Positions 41,936 to 54,526 of a DNA stretch of 56,396 bases are shown piece by piece. The translations under genes and the position numbers were made by a program. Under the pieces are notes generated by a model that saw only the letters and a program-made list of their open reading frames with translations, was not told the DNA's origin and made no database searches. Numbering within the stretch: position 1 is the first letter of the stretch; each line of letters begins with the position of its first letter. Origin of the DNA: an uncultured Lachnospiraceae bacterium (GTDB lineage Bacteria; Bacillota; Clostridia; Lachnospirales; Lachnospiraceae); NCBI GenBank assembly GCA_946544235.1, contig CAMNMC010000056.1, positions 1 to 56,396 on the forward strand, read 5' to 3'.

Positions 41936-43921
41936 TCATACCGTCTTCTCAGCGACGATTATGCAATTGGAATCCGGATAGATATCCGGCTCGAGTGTTA
42001 CCTTAGGTCTGAGATGCTCAGGATATCCCGGTTCCAGAAAAGCATCCGCTCTAAGCACCTTCGCACCCAGACGCTCCAGAACCTCCCTGTATTCAGTGAT
42101 GGTATAATATCCAAACTGCTCCTGTACCTCATGACTGTAGGACTCCTGCCCCCAGGTATAGGTATAGAGGAACTCTCGTATAAAGTCAGTACATGCGCTG
42201 ACCTTTTTCTCAGCCTCATTTACCACGATCTTCTTATCCTCGATATCTCTGAGGCCTTCAAAATCACGCATATAATTCTTAAAGAACTCCAGTCCGCTGT
42301 CCTCTTTAAAGGTTACCGTGATAATTCCCTGCTGATCAGCCGGAAAGCTTCTCACACCGTCACGTATGATCAGTCTTCCGCCCGGAGCGAGCGAATCAAA
42401 AGCATTTTTAAGAGCCTTCTCTACCACGGAAATATTGAACCTGCCCTCATCCGTCATTGTATAGGAATATATCTCATGAATGATGGATGAAAAAATAATA
42501 CTGTCAACCTTACCGGTCTCACCGCCGACAAGTATCGGACCATCAACAAAATTATGACGTTCAACCGTCCAGTGATGGCCTTCGGCCTGTTTCTTTTTGT
42601 TAAGCACCGAGATTACATTTTCGGAAATATCGGTGCCAATCACTGTTTTACCCGGATATTTTTCTTCCAGAAGATCCAGCAGCACTCCGCCGCCGCTTCC
42701 GACATCAACCACCGTCTGACCGACAACATGGTCGATTATCGTATTCTTCGTGGATTCCTCCGAAGCATTCATGGTAGCAAGATATTTATCCTCGTTATTC
42801 AGGCGGTCGAACTCATCTCGCCTGAAGCCGAACATATCATAGAGAACTGTGATGCTTTTTTCGAAGGTCAGGAGACCGCTTCTCTCTGCCTCAACACAGA
42901 ATTCTATCAGCTTTTCACAGACCTTTGAGAAAGCAAGATCAACAAGTATCGCACTGCCGTTTTTTCTTGCGGTCAGGGAAACATTTTCCACCCTGTTATC
43001 CCGAAGATGCTTCTCTATAATCCTCTTTTTATAAATATTTATATGTTTCTTTCCCTCGTAATCATAATACAGACTGTCCGCCAGAGGCTTGAATGAGATA
43101 TACCTCACATCCTCCCCGCCGATCTTATCCATAAGCCCCGTAAGTATTCCGAGTATCTGAGTACCGTCAAAATCCGACAGTGCCGCCTCAAAATACCATA
43201 ATTCATATTTAGGAAAGAGCCTGTCCCTGAAGAACTCCGTAAGCTCCTGCGGTATCTCTCCCAGACACGGAAGGAGTCTCTTTACTCTCTGCTCTGCCGG
43301 AAACTCTCTCAGATCACCGATAAGAATACGGTCAATAAGAGCGCACGCCTCCGGTTTCACCTTATCCCAGAGTTCATCGGAAACACCGCGGATGATACAC
43401 TCATTAAGGATATACAGCATATTTTTCAGTATATCCTTATCAATCTTTATTTCCTCAGGCAGCAGCAGGAGCGATGCATTTTCCGCAACCGGAACTTCAC
43501 CTCTCAGACACTGACCGATCATACCGTGAGTTCTGATCAGCGTATAAATAAGCTTCCTGTCATCAAGCGATATTTTATTATCAATCTCTGGATTATCATC
43601 AAGAAATATCTCTGCCGACGCAATATTATGGATATCGAGAGAATACTCCTTTTTCTCCCAGTCCGCGCGGTCTCTGGCAGTTCCGCCCTTTGCGACCTCC
43701 GACCACTCCAGTACCATTCTTATAATATCAAAGCATTCGGCTGTAACATTAGAATTACCACAAACTTCGATCATATCAAGAATTGACAGCGTCCTCAGCA
43801 CATAGTCCAGTGTTTCACGCCCAGTTATCCCTTCAACCCGTTCCACACGTTCAACATTTACTGACCTGTTTTCTGTATAATACAGATATGAAAACCATTT
43901 TTCCTCTCTGTAATCTCTCAC
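41936..43921 (-). CDS. Large SAM-dependent class I methyltransferase
   Basis: 661 residues, GTG start with GGAGG eight bases upstream. The first 390 or so residues form a helical region with no recognisable domain. A Rossmann methyltransferase core follows: motif I VVDVGSGGGVLLDLLE (404-419), acidic ribose-binding Asp431 in VIGTDIS, motif IV-like DSIIFSSIIHEIYSY and motif VI-like LAPGGRLIIRDG. C-terminal residues (GQESYSHEVQEQFGYYTITEYREVLERLGAKV) resemble small-molecule or tRNA-modifying methyltransferases. The substrate is unknown. It is the last cassette gene, 51 bases after the NUDIX regulator gene. Confidence 0.85.
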   Translation of the reverse strand: MRDYREEKWFSYLYYTENRSVNVERVERVEGITGRETLDYVLRTLSILDMIEVCGNSNVTAECFDIIRMVLEWSEVAKGGTARDRADWEKKEYSLDIHNIASAEIFLDDNPEIDNKISLDDRKLIYTLIRTHGMIGQCLRGEVPVAENASLLLLPEEIKIDKDILKNMLYILNECIIRGVSDELWDKVKPEACALIDRILIGDLREFPAEQRVKRLLPCLGEIPQELTEFFRDRLFPKYELWYFEAALSDFDGTQILGILTGLMDKIGGEDVRYISFKPLADSLYYDYEGKKHINIYKKRIIEKHLRDNRVENVSLTARKNGSAILVDLAFSKVCEKLIEFCVEAERSGLLTFEKSITVLYDMFGFRRDEFDRLNNEDKYLATMNASEESTKNTIIDHVVGQTVVDVGSGGGVLLDLLEEKYPGKTVIGTDISENVISVLNKKKQAEGHHWTVERHNFVDGPILVGGETGKVDSIIFSSIIHEIYSYTMTDEGRFNISVVEKALKNAFDSLAPGGRLIIRDGVRSFPADQQGIITVTFKEDSGLEFFKNYMRDFEGLRDIEDKKIVVNEAEKKVSACTDFIREFLYTYTWGQESYSHEVQEQFGYYTITEYREVLERLGAKVLRADAFLEPGYPEHLRPKVTLEPDIYPDSNCIIVAEKTV

Positions 43922-43972
43922 TTTATTTCCTCCACTCCATATATTAACAAACGATTCCGTGATACAGCCGGA

Positions 43973-44872
43973 TCATTCATAAAACGCATCCAGATTTCTC
44001 ACAAACAGCTTTGCAGGTCTGTGTCCAGATCCTGTAACGATTGATGTCGTCTCAGTAACAAACGGCGCGATCTTCCTTCTGAAATTTGGTGTCAGAAGCT
44101 TCTCCCCCAGAATGATCTCATGCGCCTCCTGAAGACTGTAAAGCGTGAATTTTTCAGGCATCAGGTCAAATACTATCCTTCCGGACTCGGCTGTCCTCTC
44201 CCTCAGCGACTTAAACGCTCTCACAATTATCTCTGCATGGTCAAAGGCAAGTCCGCTGCTTTCCTTGATCTCGTAGGAAATACTCTCATGATGCCTGCTG
44301 AACACCTTCCGTTCCTCTACGATTGCGGACAGCTTCGTATCATTATTCTCAAGCTTCAGCCGATACACGGTGCATATCTCGGCGCTTTCTTTTTTCACGT
44401 GTTTCTTTAGTTCCTCACGTTCTATATCGATGAAAAACCATCCTGCCTCCCAGGCATCTGAACCTGCGGCCAGCTTGCATTTCTTCTCGTCAACCAGAGC
44501 CAGAAATCCCTGTGAGACTATCCATCCCCGCGGATCCCTGCCCGGTGAACTGAACACGCCAAATGGCTCAAGGAAGGCACCGTCCACAGACGTTTCCTCC
44601 CTGAGTTCTCTTAATGCCGTAGCTTCCAGTTCCTCTCCCTTGGCCGCAAAGCCACCCGGCAAAGCATATTGATCCTTGAATGGGAATCCTCCCCTTTTTA
44701 TGAGAAGAACCGCCAGCTTCTTCTCCGGATCCTTTCTGTAATCATCGGCATCGCCGGCAGAAAGTATTGCAAATACAGCTATATCAGCCGTCAGTGACGG
44801 CCTGTCATATTTTGATTGATCATATTGTCTGAGGAATTCTTTTTCCTCGTCAGATACTATATAACTGCTCAT
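43973..44872 (-). CDS. NUDIX-winged-helix (NrtR-like) transcriptional regulator
   Basis: 299 residues. Residues 25-200 are a NUDIX domain with an intact box at 74-96 (G-x5-E-x7-REL-x-EE, seen as GGFAAKGEELEATALREL then REETS). An insertion of some 50 residues around 130-190 makes it longer than usual. From about 235 comes the winged helix of the NrtR group (FTLYSLQEAHEIILGEKLL, NFRRKIAPFV, GSGHRPAKLF). NrtR proteins repress NAD or sugar genes and are released by ADP-ribose or related ligands; whether this one still hydrolyses substrate is open, since the box is intact. AAGGAG precedes the ATG. Its own promoter holds an operator-like site shared with the promoter at 48.0 kb. Confidence 0.9.
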   Translation of the reverse strand: MSSYIVSDEEKEFLRQYDQSKYDRPSLTADIAVFAILSAGDADDYRKDPEKKLAVLLIKRGGFPFKDQYALPGGFAAKGEELEATALRELREETSVDGAFLEPFGVFSSPGRDPRGWIVSQGFLALVDEKKCKLAAGSDAWEAGWFFIDIEREELKKHVKKESAEICTVYRLKLENNDTKLSAIVEERKVFSRHHESISYEIKESSGLAFDHAEIIVRAFKSLRERTAESGRIVFDLMPEKFTLYSLQEAHEIILGEKLLTPNFRRKIAPFVTETTSIVTGSGHRPAKLFVRNLDAFYE

Positions 44873-44903
44873 TTTTTGCTCCTTTTCAGGTAGTTATACT
44901 CAT

Positions 44904-44932
44904 ATCTTATAACCATTTTGATAATTTGACAA
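44904..44932 (-). promoter_or_regulatory. Promoter of the NUDIX regulator gene with operator in the spacer
   Basis: On the minus strand TTGTCA (44932-44927), 17 bases, TAAGAT (44909-44904). The spacer and edge hold AATTATCAAAATGGTTATA (44926-44908), which matches the 19-bp boxes upstream of the orphan/VWA genes and sits in the same place relative to -35 and -10 as the one at 48.0 kb. Predicted autoregulation. Confidence 0.72.
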
Positions 44933-44952
44933 TATGACAGTTTTTCCGTGTG

Positions 44953-46164
44953 CTACGCCGAGGCACTTTGAATCATGCTGTCGCTATGTACAGGCAAATA
45001 TTTAGGCGATTTTTTCAGCACATTCATACTTGTTTCTCCGTCAGAAATATAATCCGCTTTATCAATAACAGGGCCGGTAAATTCATTAACGTGTGTTACC
45101 GCAACTGTCATCCTCGTCTCTGTTCTTTCCGGAAGCCTCTCGCTGTCAAAATCATTTACAATGCGACGAATAAACTCTTTCACATCCAGCTTTCCATATC
45201 GCAGAGTCCCCTGATGAGGATTCGGAACATTGGTCAGGTCTGTCATCGACGGATTGATCTCATCCTTACTGCACTCCTCAGGAAAAGGTCCTGCACCATG
45301 TCTGGTAAGATAGGTTCTTGTGACATAACATACCTCAACCTGAAGCCTGTATGGTTCATCCATATACTCTCTTATCAGTTCAGCCGGATTACGAAGCCCG
45401 GTATTGCTCGGAGTGGTATGACACCCAAATTCCCTTCTGCATCTGTCAAGCAGGAGCCCCTGGCCCGCTTCAAAGATAACGGTATCATATTCCTTCATCA
45501 CTGATACTCCCTGCAGATTGCTGAGGTGGTACATCTGCCTGAAATCAGCAATATAGTTCCGTATCAGGCCCTCATCCTCAATTATATCTCTCCAGCTCTC
45601 AGGTATTTCAGATATTCCAAGTTGCTTAAAACGCGCTTCCATCCTGGCCTTGCAGCTTCCGGCGAGATAACACTTCAGCTCATCATCCGTCATAAGCGAC
45701 ATCTCTCCAAGAAGTAAACCGTCTCTCAGGATAGTCTCCCAGATTCCCATTCCGCAGCTTCCGTGACGCGCCCTTCCGCGGTGTTCCTCTATAACCTGAT
45801 TGGCTATCATATCAAAGGGCGTTGTAACCGGGCACTCCGGATCCATATATATTTTTATTCTTTCGAAGGACACGCCTTTCTCCTGCAGTTCCTCATATTC
45901 ATTCATGAAAAGCATCGGATTTACGATGTAAAATCTCGGCAGCCATGTATTTGCTCCCTCGAACGTTCCTGATCCGAAATGATGAAATACATGTCTTATT
46001 CCTGAAGGGGTTGTGACCGTATGCCCACGCTGTGCCCCGCCATTACTGCATACAACCAGCGCACTTCGACCGTTCGCCCTCGCCTCAGAAGCAAAATAAT
46101 CCGCCATCAGTCCCTTTCCTTCATCACCGAAATTCCCGCCTATAACGATCTTGATATCCTGCAT
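44953..46164 (-). CDS. Divergent adenylosuccinate-synthetase-like (PurA paralogue) enzyme
   Basis: 403 residues, PurA fold. Retained: P-loop GNFGDEGKG (10-18) with catalytic Asp13, His48 in AQRGHTV, FEAGQGLLLD and VTRTYLTRHGAGPFPEE. Changed: the IMP loop (TTGRGIGPAY in PurA) reads HGSCGMGIWE; the aspartate loop (RPRRCGWLD) reads QGTLRYGKLD with one Arg left; the guanine motif TKxD reads VTHVN. The enzyme probably still joins an acid to a phosphorylated oxo-group using a nucleotide, but with other substrates than IMP, aspartate and perhaps GTP. It is not the phage PurZ type, which loses the catalytic Asp. It stands between the VWA and NUDIX regulator genes. Confidence 0.82.
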   Translation of the reverse strand: MQDIKIVIGGNFGDEGKGLMADYFASEARANGRSALVVCSNGGAQRGHTVTTPSGIRHVFHHFGSGTFEGANTWLPRFYIVNPMLFMNEYEELQEKGVSFERIKIYMDPECPVTTPFDMIANQVIEEHRGRARHGSCGMGIWETILRDGLLLGEMSLMTDDELKCYLAGSCKARMEARFKQLGISEIPESWRDIIEDEGLIRNYIADFRQMYHLSNLQGVSVMKEYDTVIFEAGQGLLLDRCRREFGCHTTPSNTGLRNPAELIREYMDEPYRLQVEVCYVTRTYLTRHGAGPFPEECSKDEINPSMTDLTNVPNPHQGTLRYGKLDVKEFIRRIVNDFDSERLPERTETRMTVAVTHVNEFTGPVIDKADYISDGETSMNVLKKSPKYLPVHSDSMIQSASA

Positions 46165-46313
46165 ACGCTCACCTCCCCTGCTCTTTGTTCATCATTCTCC
46201 ATCATTGCATAAATCATCTTCAGTCACATATTTCATTTCATGTTGATCATTTTCCGCCGCTTCACATCCTGTCATTCATTTCACTATGCTATTCGTATTA
46301 TTTGATTTAAACA

Positions 46314-47183
46314 TCACCAGGCAATTCCTGCGGCCTTCGGAAATACCACATAATCACTCTTCAGTGAATCATTTCCGGCATGTGCCTCAACTATTTTGAT
46401 TATCTCAGCAGATATATTATCAAGTCCAACGATCTTCACACGCTGCTTATCGAGATATTCCTCCCATTCCTTAACATCTCTTTCGGCGCGGTCTCTTCCT
46501 CTGTGATCAACATATATGTGATATATCTCATATTTTTCCTGTACCTCCTGAAGAAGAGCCTCTGTCTCCACATCACCATCAATCTGCTGTCCTGTTGCTT
46601 CAGCAAGAGCCTTGCCCGGTATATAAGGATTTATCGCCTCGTCTCCCATTGTGATTATGAGTCCCTTACTTCCCCTTTTCCATGCATCCAGCTCGATCTG
46701 ATTCACGGCGAAATACCATGCTGCAGTATAAGACTCATACGAATTACCACCGCCGCCGAATTCGAAATACAGTTTATCGAGCTGCTCGGCGATCCTGATA
46801 TCTGATTCAAACTGAGATACCTGAAGAGGGCATCTGTCATACGCAAAGTCACCGATACCCATTACCATGAACTCCACATCCTTCACCTTTTCATACAGGC
46901 TTGTCATGATAACATTCAGCTGCTTCGCAACCTCAACCGCTGCCTGTCCCATTGAGCCTGTAACATCCAGAGCAAGGATGACCGGAATGGTTGCCGGATG
47001 TTCCTTTGTATCACGACATTCTCTTATTACATTTTTCGGATTCAGCAAAGGACTCATTGTACGCATTGCAAACATTTCCTGATTCTTAAGGTCTCCTGAA
47101 ATCCTGCCGTGCTTGTCGATCACTCTTCCCATCTTTCTTGAATACATCCTGAATGTATCCTCTCTCCATACTCCGCTTCCCAT
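46314..47183 (-). CDS. VWA/MIDAS-domain cytoplasmic protein
   Basis: 289 residues, no signal or membrane segment. From about 65 the sequence is a von Willebrand A-type domain: beta strand PVILALDVTGSMGQAA with MIDAS D73-x-T-G-S77, a Thr candidate in GGGGNSYESYTAAW and the third metal ligand in LIITMGDEAINPY. The first 60 residues (VWREDTFRMYSRKMGRVIDKHGRISGDLKNQ) are an unfamiliar basic extension. VWA proteins in bacteria often bind partners such as MoxR-like ATPases or assemble complexes; no ATPase gene is adjacent. It follows the 193-residue orphan by 88 bases and precedes the PurA-like gene by 149. Confidence 0.82.
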   Translation of the reverse strand: MGSGVWREDTFRMYSRKMGRVIDKHGRISGDLKNQEMFAMRTMSPLLNPKNVIRECRDTKEHPATIPVILALDVTGSMGQAAVEVAKQLNVIMTSLYEKVKDVEFMVMGIGDFAYDRCPLQVSQFESDIRIAEQLDKLYFEFGGGGNSYESYTAAWYFAVNQIELDAWKRGSKGLIITMGDEAINPYIPGKALAEATGQQIDGDVETEALLQEVQEKYEIYHIYVDHRGRDRAERDVKEWEEYLDKQRVKIVGLDNISAEIIKIVEAHAGNDSLKSDYVVFPKAAGIAW

Positions 47184-47271
47184 AACTGCCTCCTTTCCGG
47201 CATCCTCTCATATCATTTATAGAATAAGCATGCCATTATCTCTGGTTTTCTTTATATTCCGCGCTTCCGAA

Positions 47272-47853
47272 TTAGTCTTCTCTCTTGGATTCATCCACAC
47301 TGTCTTCACCATCTTCATCCAATCCGAATATTCCGTCGAATAATCCGTCTCCCTTGTTACCAAGCAACAGAAGCGGTAAAAGCTCTGACATTCCTCCACC
47401 CTTGGAATTTCCCTTCATCATTTCAGAAAGCATCATGTATTTCATGATCCTGTCAGTGTTATTACCCTTTTTCAGCTCGGAACCGAACATTGAAACTATC
47501 TTACCGTAGAAGTAAGTATTTCCCATGAAGATGTAGTGCTCCGGAAGTATCTGCTCAACTGTCGAATCCTCATAATTGATAGCCGTTATCCTCTCATTGC
47601 CGCTCTCAATAACACATTTTGGTCTGCCATTTGCAAGTATGATGTCGCCGGCCTTAACATGATTGGTCGGTATCACAAAGAAGAATTCCTCGCCGACATT
47701 AAATACAAACTCACTGCAGTTTGTCAGCCTGCCTGCCGCTTCGTCGTAGGTCTTATACCCACTCGATGTTTTAATCGCAACACCGCCGTCCATGGAAAGC
47801 CGGCACATTCCCGGCGCGATCCTGCCAAACATACCATTAAACATTCCATTCAT
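47272..47853 (-). CDS. Orphan protein with Met/Gly-rich N-terminus and acidic tail
   Basis: 193 residues; AAAGGAGG eight bases before the ATG. It begins MNGMFNGMFGRIAPGMCRLS, continues as a beta-rich domain (GGVAIKTSSGYKTYDEAAGR, VIPTNHVKAGDIILANGRPK, YIFMGNTYFYGKIVSMFG; about 15-135), then a Met/Gly/Leu-rich stretch (MMLSEMMKGNSKGGGMSELLPLLLLG) and an acidic tail (FGLDEDGEDSVDESKRED). It looks like a self-assembling or scaffold protein, but I do not recognise it. It is the first gene after the promoter with three operator-like boxes and precedes the VWA gene. Confidence 0.85.
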   Translation of the reverse strand: MNGMFNGMFGRIAPGMCRLSMDGGVAIKTSSGYKTYDEAAGRLTNCSEFVFNVGEEFFFVIPTNHVKAGDIILANGRPKCVIESGNERITAINYEDSTVEQILPEHYIFMGNTYFYGKIVSMFGSELKKGNNTDRIMKYMMLSEMMKGNSKGGGMSELLPLLLLGNKGDGLFDGIFGLDEDGEDSVDESKRED

Positions 47854-47908
47854 CTCTTGTGCCTCCTTTCAAAATATATGAACTATATACTGTCCGCCGC
47901 TGTCGTCA

Positions 47909-47927
47909 TATTATCAATATGATAATA
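47909..47927 (-). promoter_or_regulatory. Operator-like box 1 (leader of the orphan/VWA genes)
   Basis: On the minus strand TATTATCATATTGATAATA, a perfect 7-base inverted repeat with 5-base centre, about 60 bases before the start codon at 47853. Confidence 0.65.
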
Positions 47928-47979
47928 TCTGTAGAGACGTTTAAACCTTTATTCCGGCACTGATCACCGCTCCCCGTCT

Positions 47980-47998
47980 TATATTCATTTTGATAATA
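47980..47998 (-). promoter_or_regulatory. Operator-like box 2
   Basis: On the minus strand TATTATCAAAATGAATATA; the left arm is perfect and the right arm matches at five of seven positions. It lies a short distance past the predicted transcription start. Confidence 0.6.
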
Positions 47999-48014
47999 TC
48001 TTCGATCTGTCTGT

Positions 48015-48043
48015 ATCTTATTATCTTTTCGATAATATGTCAA
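48015..48043 (-). promoter_or_regulatory. Strong promoter with operator-like box 3 in the spacer
   Basis: On the minus strand TTGACA (48043-48038), exactly 17 bases, TAAGAT (48020-48015). The box TATTATCGAAAAGATAATA (48037-48019) fills the spacer, so bound repressor would cover the promoter. Box-to-promoter geometry is the same as at the NUDIX gene promoter. The 47854-48234 gap holds the three boxes and the AEC terminator, nothing more. Confidence 0.8.
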
Positions 48044-48138: not shown

Positions 48139-48193
48139 GCAAAAAACCTCCGAATCCGCTGTTAACCGTAAAGAAAACAGCGAATTCGGAGGT
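48139..48193 (-). terminator. Terminator of the AEC transporter gene
   Basis: Eighteen-base arms (ACCTCCGAATCCGCTGTT and its near-complement, one mismatch) with a 12-base loop; on the minus strand the stem is followed by TTTTTTGCG. It lies 42 bases past the AEC stop codon and insulates the cassette promoter. Confidence 0.88.
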
Positions 48194-48234
48194 CATGCAT
48201 TTTACCTGTATTCTATTAATATCTATTTCAAAAA

Positions 48235-51199: not shown

Positions 51200-54100
51200 C
51201 TATGGTCTTCTCATAGATGACTTAGGAGTAACCGTATTCGATCTTGGACGATCATTTACGTTCTTATCCATCTCGTTTTCATTCTTATGAACAGGGCCTA
51301 CCGAATTACGTTCCTTAACAGTATCAGCCGCATGTACATTATCGATTGCTTTAACCTTGAGCGCCTTGATATTGTTAAGTGCTTCATTAGCAGTCTCTCT
51401 GCTTCCCAGAACATTGTCCTTCTTGAGACCATCTATGATCCAGTTTCTGATATTCTGAACCTCTTCCGGATGAAGAGCAAGCTCTACGGCAGCATCTTCA
51501 TTCTTGGCTGCAATATAGTCCTTAATGGTGCTGAGTGCAATGATATCTCCGAGCCTTTTGTACGTATCTTCCTTAACCATATCATGCCCAAATTCCGTAG
51601 GATCAAAAAGTGCGGTTGAAGAAGCATCGTTTACAAGGTCCTTCAGTCCCTGGAGCTTCTTATCCTCTCTCTTCCACTCTCTGCGCCAGCCATCAACGAC
51701 GTCCTCGGCCTTGTTCCATCTTGCTCTCGCATTCTTTGGATCGGCAGCAGCAAGTCTCTTATAAACATCGCTCTGCTCAGCAAGTATCTCATGTCTTCCA
51801 AGGTCACCCTTCTCCATGATCTTGCCCCATTTTTCAAGGCAGTTCTTAGGATCCTTCTTAACAAGCTTACTGAACTGTGGATCAGCAGCAAGCTTATTAA
51901 CCTCTGCATTGAATCTCTCACTGAAATCATCACTCAGAATATCTTCTGCAAGTTCATCGACATTCAGCGCATTTTTCTTCCTGCCTGCAGCCTTGATTGC
52001 ATTCTCATATTTACTCTTAATAAACTCTCTTGCATATTCTCCCGGCTTTGCCTCAAACGGACTGTCAAGAAACTCTATGTTCTTGCCTCTCTTCTTGGCT
52101 GCATCGGCAACAGCACGTCTCAACTCATCACGTCTGTTGACTTCATCAAGAAGCTTAGTTGTCTCCGGACCAGGATTCTCGAAAGCTTCGACGGAAGCAT
52201 TGATACCCTTGCTGGCAGCAGACTTCTTGAAACGTCCCCACTTTAACTGAAGATCTGTCTTTGTCAAACCAGGATCGAAATAATCCGCGTTACGAGCCCC
52301 GATCAATGGATAGAGATCAGCAACCTTCTTGATGTCAAATGCGAATTCGTATTCATCAGCCTCGAGCTTCTTTGCAATATTATTTCTCGGAATTCCCTTT
52401 TCCTTTGAATATCCCTTAAAGAGGCCCTTAAGTCCTGTATGCTTATTTACGTAAGCAGATGCAGCCTTCTTAACCTCAGACATATACTTCGGAAGATTTT
52501 TAATATCAGCATTTACACTTGGGCCTTCAAGAGCAGTGCAGCTAACCACTGTCTTTAAAGCCTTCATAAGACCCTTGTATGTTTCGGAACCTTCAGCATC
52601 CTTTTTAAGCGCAACATCTACATTCGGATCATCCTGTGTTGCCTTGAGTTCATCATATATTGCCTTTAACTTCTTATGAAGATCATTTACTTCGCTGTAG
52701 AAAGCCATCTCTCTGTTAATATCTTTCGATGACTTCGAAATAACCTGCGGCTTGAATTGTACAGCCTTATCATTATCGTCCAGAACATAAACATCAGCTG
52801 TAACCTTCTTATCACCGTAAATAGCTTCCCTGAACACCTCATTCATGATAAGTAACTTCTTATCCTCGGGATCAGTTATACCGGCATACTTTTCGGCATA
52901 CAGGTCTGTCACGCTCTGACCATCAATCCTGATTATCGAAAGTGGATCAGTTATACCGATAAATTCATAAAATTCCGGCATGTTCAGTTCCTTGGTCATG
53001 ACGCTGTAAGCCTGCTCAAGCTTTTCACGATAATCCTTGCCATTTTCGCCTTTGATATAATCAAGCATCTGCTGTGGAGTTGACTCATTTTTATACGCGC
53101 CAAATATACCAGGTATAATATCCTCGCCTGTTTTACGCTGCTCTATTCCGAATTTAGCAATTTCATCCGCAAGCGCAAGTGTTGAGCTTTCAAATGTATT
53201 TGAATTAAATGACTGACGTCCTGCCTTACGAGATTTCTGATATGATTCATCAAGTCCATTCTCAGCTGATCTGTCCTTGCCCGTAAGATATTCGAAAGGC
53301 TTAACGCCCCTAGGCATATGGAACTGACTGTCTGCCATAATAGCATACAGATTACGAGCTGCGTCCTTACCCTTTGTATCACCTGCTATATCAGCTATAG
53401 TCCTGCCCTTAATATCCTTCTGACCGATCTTCGAAAGCTGTAATCTCGCATTTGTAGCCAGCCTGTAGTTATTCGGTTGATTTTTCCAAATATGCTCAGG
53501 CTCGAAATGATCCGGATTGTATGAATTCATAATCGAGATCAGCTTAGGCTGAACGCCAATCCAGTTGTCAATTGCGGCAGAGTACTGCTTTGTACCTCCT
53601 GCTTCTTCCTGAGCATAGATAAGCGCCTCTCCGTCTTTTCTTGTCACCATCTCAAATTCCTGAGCAACATCTATCTCAGCGCCCTGAAGCTGTCTGAAGA
53701 AATCAGCATGCTCCTGAACCTGCTTAGGATCAGAATAATCAATATCAGGCATTCTGGTCTCGCCTAACTTCTTATTACAATCCATGAACATTCTTGTCCA
53801 AATCTTGACATTTGTCCTTCTGGTCTCAGCCTTCTCTGCATTTGTAGGGTGAGCCTTAAGGAAATCATGGAATTCGGCAACATAATTGCTAAACTCCGGA
53901 GAATCAGATTTGAGATCCATAACCTGATTGAAGTTCAGTCCCTTTATACCCATCAGATATGCAACAAATATACCATAATGTCTCGGATTTCCGGAATCAT
54001 GGAAATGCGCATTACCAAAGGCCTTTTTGATCTCCTCATCACCTGAAACCATTTCCTGCTTTTTATAAAGATCAGTGACATCAGGATTAATAAAACCAAG

Positions 54101-54526
54101 TATTTCTCTGGCACGCTTAACGCTTGCCTTGTTCATCTCCTTTGTGCGGAGTGTTTCAAGGTCATTTATATCCTTGTAATCATCATAATTACCTTCCGGA
54201 AGATCTTTCACCTCTTCTTCAGGCTGCTCCTCCTGCGGTGCGCCTTCGTTCACATTGTTTACTTCAGGCTGATCATTATTTACAGCGTTGATATCAATGT
54301 TTTCAGGCTGGTTGTTAACAGCGTTAACATCAACATTCTCCTGCTGGTTGTTGTTTGCAGCATTTACATCGACATTCTCCTGCTGGTTGTTATTTGCATC
54401 ATTTACATTGATATTCTCAGGCTGGTTGTTATTTGCATCATTTACATTGATATTCTCAGGCTGGTTGTTGTTAGCATCGTTATTTAACTGGTTCTCATTA
54501 TTTACGTTTTCTTCCAGCTTTGGCAT
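51200..54526 (-). CDS. Large orphan protein with Asn-rich tandem repeats
   Basis: 1108 residues, no signal peptide or membrane helix. Residues 17-92 are seven-odd copies of a 13-residue repeat (ANNNQPENINVND, ANNNQQENVDVNA and variants), then an acidic linker (EEQPEEEVKDLPEG). The remaining 1000 residues are mostly helical and charged with no domain I can name; landmarks are KALKTVVSCTALEGPSVNADIKNLPKYM, YVNKHTGLKGLFKGYSKEKG and a C-terminal RPRSNTVTPKSSMRRP that is basic and serine-rich. AGGAGG precedes the ATG. The low-complexity head plus long helical body suggests a surface-exported (leaderless), scaffold or effector protein, but that is guesswork. It is a single-gene unit between a structured repeat element and a hairpin. 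Confidence 0.85.
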   Translation of the reverse strand: MPKLEENVNNENQLNNDANNNQPENINVNDANNNQPENINVNDANNNQQENVDVNAANNNQQENVDVNAVNNQPENIDINAVNNDQPEVNNVNEGAPQEEQPEEEVKDLPEGNYDDYKDINDLETLRTKEMNKASVKRAREILGFINPDVTDLYKKQEMVSGDEEIKKAFGNAHFHDSGNPRHYGIFVAYLMGIKGLNFNQVMDLKSDSPEFSNYVAEFHDFLKAHPTNAEKAETRRTNVKIWTRMFMDCNKKLGETRMPDIDYSDPKQVQEHADFFRQLQGAEIDVAQEFEMVTRKDGEALIYAQEEAGGTKQYSAAIDNWIGVQPKLISIMNSYNPDHFEPEHIWKNQPNNYRLATNARLQLSKIGQKDIKGRTIADIAGDTKGKDAARNLYAIMADSQFHMPRGVKPFEYLTGKDRSAENGLDESYQKSRKAGRQSFNSNTFESSTLALADEIAKFGIEQRKTGEDIIPGIFGAYKNESTPQQMLDYIKGENGKDYREKLEQAYSVMTKELNMPEFYEFIGITDPLSIIRIDGQSVTDLYAEKYAGITDPEDKKLLIMNEVFREAIYGDKKVTADVYVLDDNDKAVQFKPQVISKSSKDINREMAFYSEVNDLHKKLKAIYDELKATQDDPNVDVALKKDAEGSETYKGLMKALKTVVSCTALEGPSVNADIKNLPKYMSEVKKAASAYVNKHTGLKGLFKGYSKEKGIPRNNIAKKLEADEYEFAFDIKKVADLYPLIGARNADYFDPGLTKTDLQLKWGRFKKSAASKGINASVEAFENPGPETTKLLDEVNRRDELRRAVADAAKKRGKNIEFLDSPFEAKPGEYAREFIKSKYENAIKAAGRKKNALNVDELAEDILSDDFSERFNAEVNKLAADPQFSKLVKKDPKNCLEKWGKIMEKGDLGRHEILAEQSDVYKRLAAADPKNARARWNKAEDVVDGWRREWKREDKKLQGLKDLVNDASSTALFDPTEFGHDMVKEDTYKRLGDIIALSTIKDYIAAKNEDAAVELALHPEEVQNIRNWIIDGLKKDNVLGSRETANEALNNIKALKVKAIDNVHAADTVKERNSVGPVHKNENEMDKNVNDRPRSNTVTPKSSMRRP
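54251..54478 (-). repeat. 39-bp tandem repeats coding the Asn-rich head
   Basis: About six to seven copies of a unit encoding NNNQ(P/Q)EN(I/V)(N/D)VN(D/A)A. Adjacent copies are nearly identical at the DNA level, so copy-number change by slippage is likely. Confidence 0.8.

Follow-up and report, generated by a model that had tools for sequence, protein, structure and literature searches.

Do the five adjacent minus-strand genes in the window (the whole stretch of 56,396 nucleotides analysed here) form a single cassette, as the original prediction proposed, and what could their products do? All five ORFs were found at the places and lengths proposed, with intergenic gaps of 51-149 bp in the ORF list of the window (Table 1). 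The host of the cassette is a relative of the rumen Eubacterium.

Table 1. Genes and control sites of the cassette region, in window coordinates.
Feature	Position	Strand	Size or remarks
ORPH, first gene of the triad	47272..47853	-	193 aa; predicted SH3-like barrel and Met/Gly-rich tail
VWA-like protein, MIDAS-type motif LDVTGSMG, phrog_2971	46314..47183	-	289 aa; named from the motif; no Pfam VWA match at cut-off
PurA-like enzyme, VWA-linked clade, phrog_1211	44953..46164	-	403 aa; assigned from Pfam, residues and tree
NUDIX + NrtR-type winged-helix regulator	43973..44872	-	299 aa; assigned from Pfam and contact residues
Class I SAM methyltransferase, NF005379-like, ~390-residue N-terminal region; optional member	41936..43921	-	661 aa
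Triad core promoter TTGACA-17-TAAGAT	48015..48043	-	operator palindrome 48019-48037 between and over the hexamers
Second operator palindrome TATTATCATATTGATAATA, upstream of ORPH	47909..47927	-	
Half-operator GATATTATCAAAATGAATATAAGA, between both palindromes	47977..48000	-	
NUDIX-gene promoter-like site TTGTCA-17-TAAGAT with operator-like ATTATCAAAATGGTTAT	44904..44932	-	partial copy of the box
Intrinsic terminator behind the upstream transporter gene	48145..48194	-	hairpin + T-run

Identity of the gene products and boundaries of the cassette

The PurA-like enzyme and the NrtR-like regulator were both confirmed by Pfam, the former through the PurA fold (PF00709, 109.5 bits) and the latter through an N-terminal NUDIX domain and a C-terminal NrtR_WHD winged helix, which were both present in 49/49 regulator proteins. 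The large methyltransferase scored 575 bits against the NF005379 model (cut-off 602). The 193-residue protein deserved its description as an orphan, as it gave no match in Pfam, NCBIfam, PADLOC or PHROG; a predicted SH3-like barrel (residues ~58-121) is followed in the model by a Met/Gly-rich tail of low confidence.

For the protein described as a MIDAS protein, a VWA domain is supported by its motif and by two sub-threshold profile matches. A MIDAS-like motif D-x-[TS]-[GA]-S (DxTGS-type) was found in 160/160 loci, whereas none of the 19 family members scanned matched a Pfam VWA model at the curated cut-off, the sub-threshold matches being VWA_4 (12.1 bits) and DUF58 (13.1 bits), and the family profile matched no PDB chain at E<=1. 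The VWA fold is thus a putative one, read from the motif.

Upstream, the terminator that had been proposed was found as a strong hairpin with a T-run (-38.4 kcal/mol, z -8.2), not listed by a simple terminator scan (loops <=8) that returned four terminators compared to 3.7 in shuffled sequences. The downstream end of the cassette is not insulated, as an ABC-F gene begins 33 bp past the methyltransferase.

A three-gene unit shared by phages and bacteria

The conservation of the cassette was followed in 80 viral loci, gathered with the VWA-like protein as sole query, and in 80 bacterial loci. ORPH was located within 1.2 kb upstream of the VWA gene in all 80 viral contigs; in 79 the PurA-like gene followed downstream at no more than 1.2 kb, the remaining contig ending there; a separate ORF-based count gave all three genes in 73/80 viral loci. 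The NUDIX regulator was found in none of these viral contigs, and no other neighbour family exceeded 16/80 loci.

In the bacterial loci, the VWA and PurA-like genes were neighbours in 78/80 cases, the other two being contig ends. The gene upstream of this pair was ORPH in 52 loci and encoded a J-domain/kinase-fold protein in 10. These two types are not cleanly split in the VWA tree, because Va1 and RHph_Y65, which have an ORPH-like upstream gene, cluster with the J-domain and proteobacterial rows. In the same tree, which has 51 rows, 12 bacterial rows were nested among 28 viral ones, and the label changed seven times, with at least four of these changes forced. An NrtR-type NUDIX-winged-helix gene was present in 58/80 bacterial loci, linked to the triad through several gene orders; in the other 22 no NUDIX gene was seen, for some of which contig ends are perhaps the explanation.

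Within the genus, ORPH was detected in 16/61 genomes. A close NUDIX homologue was present in those 16 and in G321, and a close PurA-like gene in 15 of the 16, ORPH lying at a contig end in G355. ORPH, PurA-like and NUDIX genes thus share their genus genomes, and the VWA gene sits between ORPH and the PurA-like gene. The association of VWA, PurA-like and NUDIX genes extends to Ruminococcus and Desulfosporosinus, and carriers of the unit, as named in record titles, include many large phages, Lachnospiraceae, Ruminococcus, Bacteroidales and some Alphaproteobacteria.

On this comparative evidence, ORPH, the VWA gene and the PurA-like gene make up a phage module, and ORPH-VWA-PurA-like is almost certainly a conserved unit, which did not appear as a described system among the papers listed by full-text literature searches. 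The genes of the proposed cassette are real, but they fall into two modules, with the triad as core and the NUDIX gene separate.

The methyltransferase as an optional member

The co-occurrence analysis suggested with the original prediction held for ORPH, VWA, PurA-like and NUDIX but failed for the methyltransferase, which was found in only 6/80 bacterial loci, one of them a fragment. Its gene was also detected without the triad in five genomes of the genus (G300, G307, G311, G342 and G352), and the nearest relative retains only ~52 residues of it. A single indivisible five-gene pathway, methyltransferase included, was already disfavoured and is very improbable, even though the order seen in the window is repeated in L049, L052, L054, L056 and L058, with extra genes inserted in L052 and L054. 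The methyltransferase is an optional gene outside the core.

Probable control of the triad by an NrtR-type regulator

The same box had been reported in two promoters. The full palindrome TATTATC-N5-GATAATA was found twice, at the triad promoter and upstream of ORPH, whereas the copy at the NUDIX-gene promoter matches in part. When 61 genus genomes were surveyed with the pattern TTGACATATTATC-N5-GATNATA, one mismatch being allowed, it was found in 16 genomes, which were exactly the ORPH carriers, and each of them has a site directly in front of ORPH; a control pattern gave 0/61. The same operator also precedes a gene for a TIR-domain protein in two genomes of the genus, G322 (TIR_2, 43.6 bits) and G351 (assigned by likeness only).

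The ADP-ribose contacts of Shewanella NrtR, given as Tyr10, Arg41 and Arg98 in PMC4666351, align to Y17, R60 and R115 of the regulator once the numbering of the paper, which is offset from that of the chain by a constant 3, is converted. Y17 and R60 were each kept in at least 90% of 49 NUDIX proteins and R115 in 100%. In L048 and L057 the NUDIX gene has a nicotinate phosphoribosyltransferase gene as its direct neighbour; in L050 the two are two genes apart. The regulator thus resembles NrtR in its domains, its ADP-ribose-contact positions and its promoter palindrome, but differs in being tied to a phage-type triad and not to NAD genes only, and in scoring 141 against the ADP-ribose-responsive NCBIfam equivalog (cut-off 400). 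NrtR-type control of the triad, presumably by repression, is probable. An ADP-ribose-like ligand, such as NAD breakdown would produce, is favoured less strongly, as it is weakened both by that score and by an NrtR relative that senses arabinose instead (PMC4666351).

These data bear on a possible domestication of the phage genes for host defence or stress response, in which ADP-ribose from NADases or ADP-ribosylating factors would switch the triad on, and its product would harm the phage or signal to effectors. The presence of the triad's own operator in 16/16 carrier genomes and of the same operator before the TIR proteins would fit this role, as would an apparent parallel with NUDIX- or WYL-regulated ADP-ribosylglycohydrolase-vWA-chaperone systems, predicted in PMC9503650. 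On the other hand, the triad is common in phages, which would be odd for an anti-phage weapon, and PADLOC identified no defence system in the cassette, giving only two matches, one at 40 bits between the methyltransferase SAM domain and mad2, the other a weak one for NUDIX at 14.7 bits, nor in six other neighbour proteins scanned, the TIR protein excepted. A defence role is considered rather unlikely.

The ADP-ribosylglycohydrolase-vWA systems of PMC9503650 share with the cassette a NUDIX-HTH regulator, a vWA protein and chaperone-like partners, but Pfam gave no ADP-ribosylglycohydrolase or phosphatase match in the five genes of the cassette, nor any ADP-ribosylglycohydrolase among ten window proteins scanned, and the string 'adenylosuccin' is absent from the text of that paper. 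The MoxR-vWA ternary conflict systems (PMC7159879) likewise have a vWA protein within a small gene set that includes a third partner; no MoxR ATPase was matched by Pfam among the five genes, and 'PurA' is absent from their description there.

The PurA-like enzyme

The host genome carries its canonical PurA as a separate gene, at C104, with 25% identity to the PurA-like protein. The latter shares with PurA the fold, the P-loop GDEGKG and the Asp13, His41 and Gln224 positions, but scored 79.2 bits against the NCBIfam purA model (cut-off 395.55) and 27.6 bits against PurZ (cut-off 300). In the alignment, Arg303 was present in 0/30 PurA-like rows compared to 4/4 canonical rows, Arg305 was retained in 30/30, and the Arg131 position was also lost.

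Loss of the Arg303 contact is shared with PurZ/PurZ0 of the 2-aminoadenine phages, also a phage PurA paralogue. However, Asp13, the base of canonical PurA, was retained in 29/29 PurA-like rows with letters, whereas Ser or Gly at this position marks PurZ; phiVC8 PurZ has Ser, as do 147/147 phage PurZ sequences in PMC12884076. The PurA-like proteins formed their own clade in the tree (97/93), apart from canonical PurA and the one phage PurZ included. Phage records and PHROGs call this VWA-linked clade '2-aminooxy adenylosuccinate synthetase', a PurZ-type name that is disfavoured because Asp13 is kept. The substrate has an even chance of being a 6-oxopurine nucleotide.

Since the Arg131 position, an aspartate contact in PurA, is lost, the amine may not be aspartate. 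Instead of free aspartate, the partner of the purine nucleotide could be some large amine, a protein or another, presented by the VWA-like, ORPH or J-domain protein, but no such modified protein is known and this conjugation is improbable. Against it also stands the deoxy-substrate PurZ, an enzyme that works with aspartate even though its Arg303 contact is missing (PMC8342488).

The same loss in PurZ would agree with a metabolism that serves the phage, in which the enzyme would convert (d)IMP into adenine (deoxy)nucleotides that feed phage replication, while the copies in bacteria would be acquired genes that do little. Many of the triad-bearing viral contigs are indeed 130-260 kb in size. This explanation is nevertheless unlikely, as the bacterial copies come with a specific operator in 16/16 genus genomes and are linked with regulators of the NrtR type, the gene order of this linkage taking several forms.

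A proposed mechanism

The reading considered most likely is that a triad of phage ancestry, under ADP-ribose-type repression, acts on a 6-oxopurine (deoxy)nucleotide in a phage-host or NAD-stress conflict. NAD breakdown would raise ADP-ribose, which would bind the NUDIX domain and release the repressor from the palindrome over the triad promoter and from its own promoter, so that ORPH, the VWA-like protein and the PurA-like enzyme would be produced. The enzyme would act on a hypoxanthine (deoxy)nucleotide, with dIMP or IMP as the best candidates, activating its 6-oxo group at the expense of an NTP and joining to it an amine, aspartate or another. The VWA-like protein, together with ORPH or, in the other type, with the J-domain/kinase-fold protein, may serve as a scaffold or hold the substrate. 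The unit would probably serve to replenish or change the pool of adenine nucleotides when phage infection leads to the consumption or deamination of NAD and adenine nucleotides; phages have the same triad but lack the switch. The mechanism as a whole, as written here, is given a probability of about 0.3. The broader proposal of synthesis or modification of a nucleotide, with an NAD-like signal, is plausible.

A bolder version, which we hold to be quite doubtful, would make this a third PurA-fold chemistry: in place of free aspartate, the phage-borne enzyme would couple a different amine to the 6-oxopurine (deoxy)nucleotide, with VWA plus ORPH or VWA plus the J-domain protein as the holding scaffold. 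Phages would use this chemistry, and bacteria would have captured it repeatedly and placed it behind an ADP-ribose-sensing switch as a response to NAD loss. If the ADP-ribose switch is right, NAD loss would be linked to a purine-nucleotide enzyme.

Gene order in the window and in phages

Five genes were found on the minus strand at the places where the original prediction had put them, with intergenic gaps of 51 to 149 bp. Pfam confirmed the domain calls made for three of the products, detecting a PurA fold in the PurA-like protein, NUDIX plus NrtR winged-helix domains in the putative regulator and a class I methyltransferase domain in the last protein, while Pfam and NCBIfam returned no match for the first protein (ORPH, 193 residues) and none of weight for the VWA-like protein (289 residues). 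The terminator expected upstream was also present, being strong (z -8.2) and ending a transporter gene; a simple terminator scan overlooked it and by itself found no terminator excess. As an ABC-F gene starts only 33 bp downstream, that end of the cassette is open.

When 50,697 phage records were searched by tblastn, 224 matched the PurA-like protein (189 from Mycobacterium phages) and 207 the MIDAS (VWA-like) protein (188 from Mycobacterium phages). The two genes are adjacent in each of four phage records inspected, namely Vibrio Va1, Rhizobium RHph_Y65, Mycobacterium Sebata and gut phage MT835469; the last of these also has an ORPH that is 61% identical. Viral contigs were also scanned with a VWA-like alignment. 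From the 200 stretches confirmed, the 80 with the best matches were retained, and their neighbours were sought by six-frame reading with profiles of the other cassette genes. Among these best 80 of 200, ORPH lay within 1.2 kb upstream of the VWA-like gene in every locus and the PurA-like gene within 1.2 kb downstream in 79, the remaining contig ending too early; an earlier count of picked ORFs had given the complete triad in 73 of them. No other neighbour family exceeded 16 of the same 80 loci and, therefore, the unit is the triad ORPH-VWA-PurA-like and not a wider island. A family perhaps similar, as judged by eye, to the protein of locus L260 that weakly matches Rsr was seen in 10 of these best 80.

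In a VWA tree with SH-aLRT support only, the larger part held 28 viral and 12 bacterial rows, the latter in several separate places and the group of the window adjoining gut-phage rows, whereas Va1 and RHph_Y65 fell in the smaller part with J-domain and proteobacterial rows. All 51 rows required seven changes of host label, at least four of them forced. This topology fits capture by bacteria from phages, more than once, although some contigs may have been wrongly assigned to viruses or to genomes.

No account of the VWA-PurA pair was found in the full-text literature searched, a coverage outside which most subscription journals and preprints lie, so this is not proof of novelty; the adenylosuccinate synthase and the VWA protein of Vi01-like phages appear as separate table rows in PMC10892097. 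We rate the system as categorically new as a gene unit, its folds being known or unconfirmed.

Two modules are joined in the window

Among 61 genomes of the genus, ORPH was present in 16, and a close PurA-like gene in 15, every one an ORPH carrier. A close NUDIX gene was detected in 17, the 16 ORPH carriers plus G321; as a yardstick, whole-genome NUDIX matches in the 61 amounted to 49 rows, several being pieces of one gene. The VWA-PurA pair of genome G303 is a distant one, and upstream of it lies a zinc-ribbon-like J/kinase family member (99.5 bits). The methyltransferase was found in 16 of the 61 by any match, counting one fragment and one weak hit, and five of these genomes lack the triad. 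A different NUDIX-type gene lies beside the methyltransferase in G300 and G342. By any match, only 5 genomes in one family-wide sample of 150 had it. Thus, of the single five-gene cassette originally predicted, the co-occurrence of triad and NUDIX gene in the genus was upheld, but the methyltransferase also occurs apart from the triad, and from this pattern we see two modules, triad and NUDIX(-methyltransferase), joined in the window.

Of 80 bacterial loci, 58 had a NUDIX gene of the regulator family, against none of the 80 viral loci (best 80 of 200). Both NUDIX and NrtR_WHD domains were detected in all 49 proteins scanned (48 of the 58, labelled earlier, plus that of the window). In 45 loci, the gene was located downstream (28), upstream on the same strand (11) or divergently upstream (6). 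These varied positions, together with a NUDIX-gene tree (no bootstrap) that requires several moves, point to repeated recruitment of the regulator.

Residues of the PurA-like enzyme

Thirty VWA-linked rows were aligned with four canonical PurA proteins and phiVC8 PurZ. Arg305 was retained in 30/30 and Asp13 in all 29 rows having letters there, whereas Arg303 and Arg131 were each retained in 0/30, Sebata having Lys at both. Arg303 is described as contacting O2' of IMP and aspartate, a contact lost in PurZ (PMC8342488), and the Asp13 position is reported to be Ser in 147 of 147 phage PurZ (PMC12884076); the section of the latter that gives this count does not discuss the other phage homologues. 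The VWA-linked clade, therefore, shares with PurZ the loss of Arg303 but differs in keeping Asp13. A tree set the 29 VWA-linked rows apart by one branch (97/93) and the 11 canonical rows by another (100/99). Because Asp13 is kept, a hypoxanthine-type substrate is suggested, and the loss of Arg303 would allow a deoxyribonucleotide; dIMP is our first guess.

A shared operator and a putative NAD-related switch

The operator-like box of the original prediction was also recovered: the exact palindrome occurs in its own genome solely at two places upstream of ORPH, and one-mismatch versions at six further places versus two for a control pattern. TTGACAT followed by an ATTATC-N5-GATAAT-like palindrome was seen in 12/12 genus ORPH promoters printed (window plus 11 loci), with imperfect palindromes in L046, L048, L050 and some others. 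When one mismatch was allowed, TTGACATATTATC-N5-GATNATA was detected in exactly those genomes of the genus that carry ORPH (16 of 61), each having a site directly upstream of that gene; the control pattern was found in 0/61. Additional sites in G304, G305, G322, G329 and G351 are near membrane, lipoprotein or other genes; the same operator precedes a TIR-domain protein in two of these genomes, and in three it is carried by a conserved membrane-like protein that has a lipoprotein-like protein encoded after it. One copy of the membrane-like protein was scanned, without any Pfam match.

Three residues of Shewanella NrtR that contact ADP-ribose, as named in PMC4666351, are retained in the NUDIX regulator family, on the assumption that the numbering of the paper and that of the chain differ throughout by 3. 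Among the retained positions is Arg98, which is Gly in an arabinose-sensing relative (PMC4666351). The window protein nevertheless scores under the NCBIfam equivalog cut-off, so ADP-ribose is a predicted ligand of the regulator. In L048 and L057 a nicotinate phosphoribosyltransferase gene is the direct neighbour of the NUDIX gene, and in L050 it lies two genes off; this, together with the occurrence of the operator before a TIR-domain protein in two genomes, agrees with a putative NAD-related switch. In the mechanism proposed, breakdown of NAD would raise ADP-ribose, which would release the repressor and allow expression of the triad, and a 6-oxopurine nucleotide would then be aminated at the expense of NTP with the assistance of the two partner proteins; the observed part of this mechanism is its anatomy and linkage.

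Coordinates of operator-linked and neighbouring features
Feature	Location	Remarks
TIR-domain protein with beta-propeller-like repeats	L315:1063-4194 (G322)	TIR_2, 43.6 bits
TIR-domain protein with beta-propeller-like repeats	L317:1803-4943 (G351)	by likeness to that of G322
Membrane-like protein, 377-386 residues	L313:1894-3054 (G305)	
Membrane-like protein, 377-386 residues	L314:1841-2980 (G322)	
Membrane-like protein, 377-386 residues	L319:3995-5128 (G351)	
DUF6630-type protein between PurA-like and NUDIX genes	L046:8934-9503 (relative)	confirmed by Pfam
DUF6630-type protein between PurA-like and NUDIX genes	L048:5476-6057 (relative)	
DUF6630-type protein between PurA-like and NUDIX genes	L050:4944-5495 (relative)	
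1297-residue protein inserted between PurA-like and NUDIX genes	L052:8859-12752	weak AAA/NTPase matches
Methyltransferase reduced to about its first 52 residues	L047:6086-6310 (nearest relative)	then response-regulator-like gene
Large protein with Asn-rich repetitive N-terminus, near cassette	window 51200-54526	
Large protein with Asn-rich repetitive N-terminus, near cassette	L047:12750-15947 (nearest relative)	
Protein near triad	L260:13517-15040	matches Rsr, an RNA-binding protein, weakly (32 bits; cut-off 900)
Mycobacterium phage Sebata gp260	L062:5589-6662	annotated Ser/Thr kinase

Sebata gp260 resembles a J-domain pseudokinase, as it carries a J-domain HPD motif and the Asp of its catalytic loop seems to be missing.
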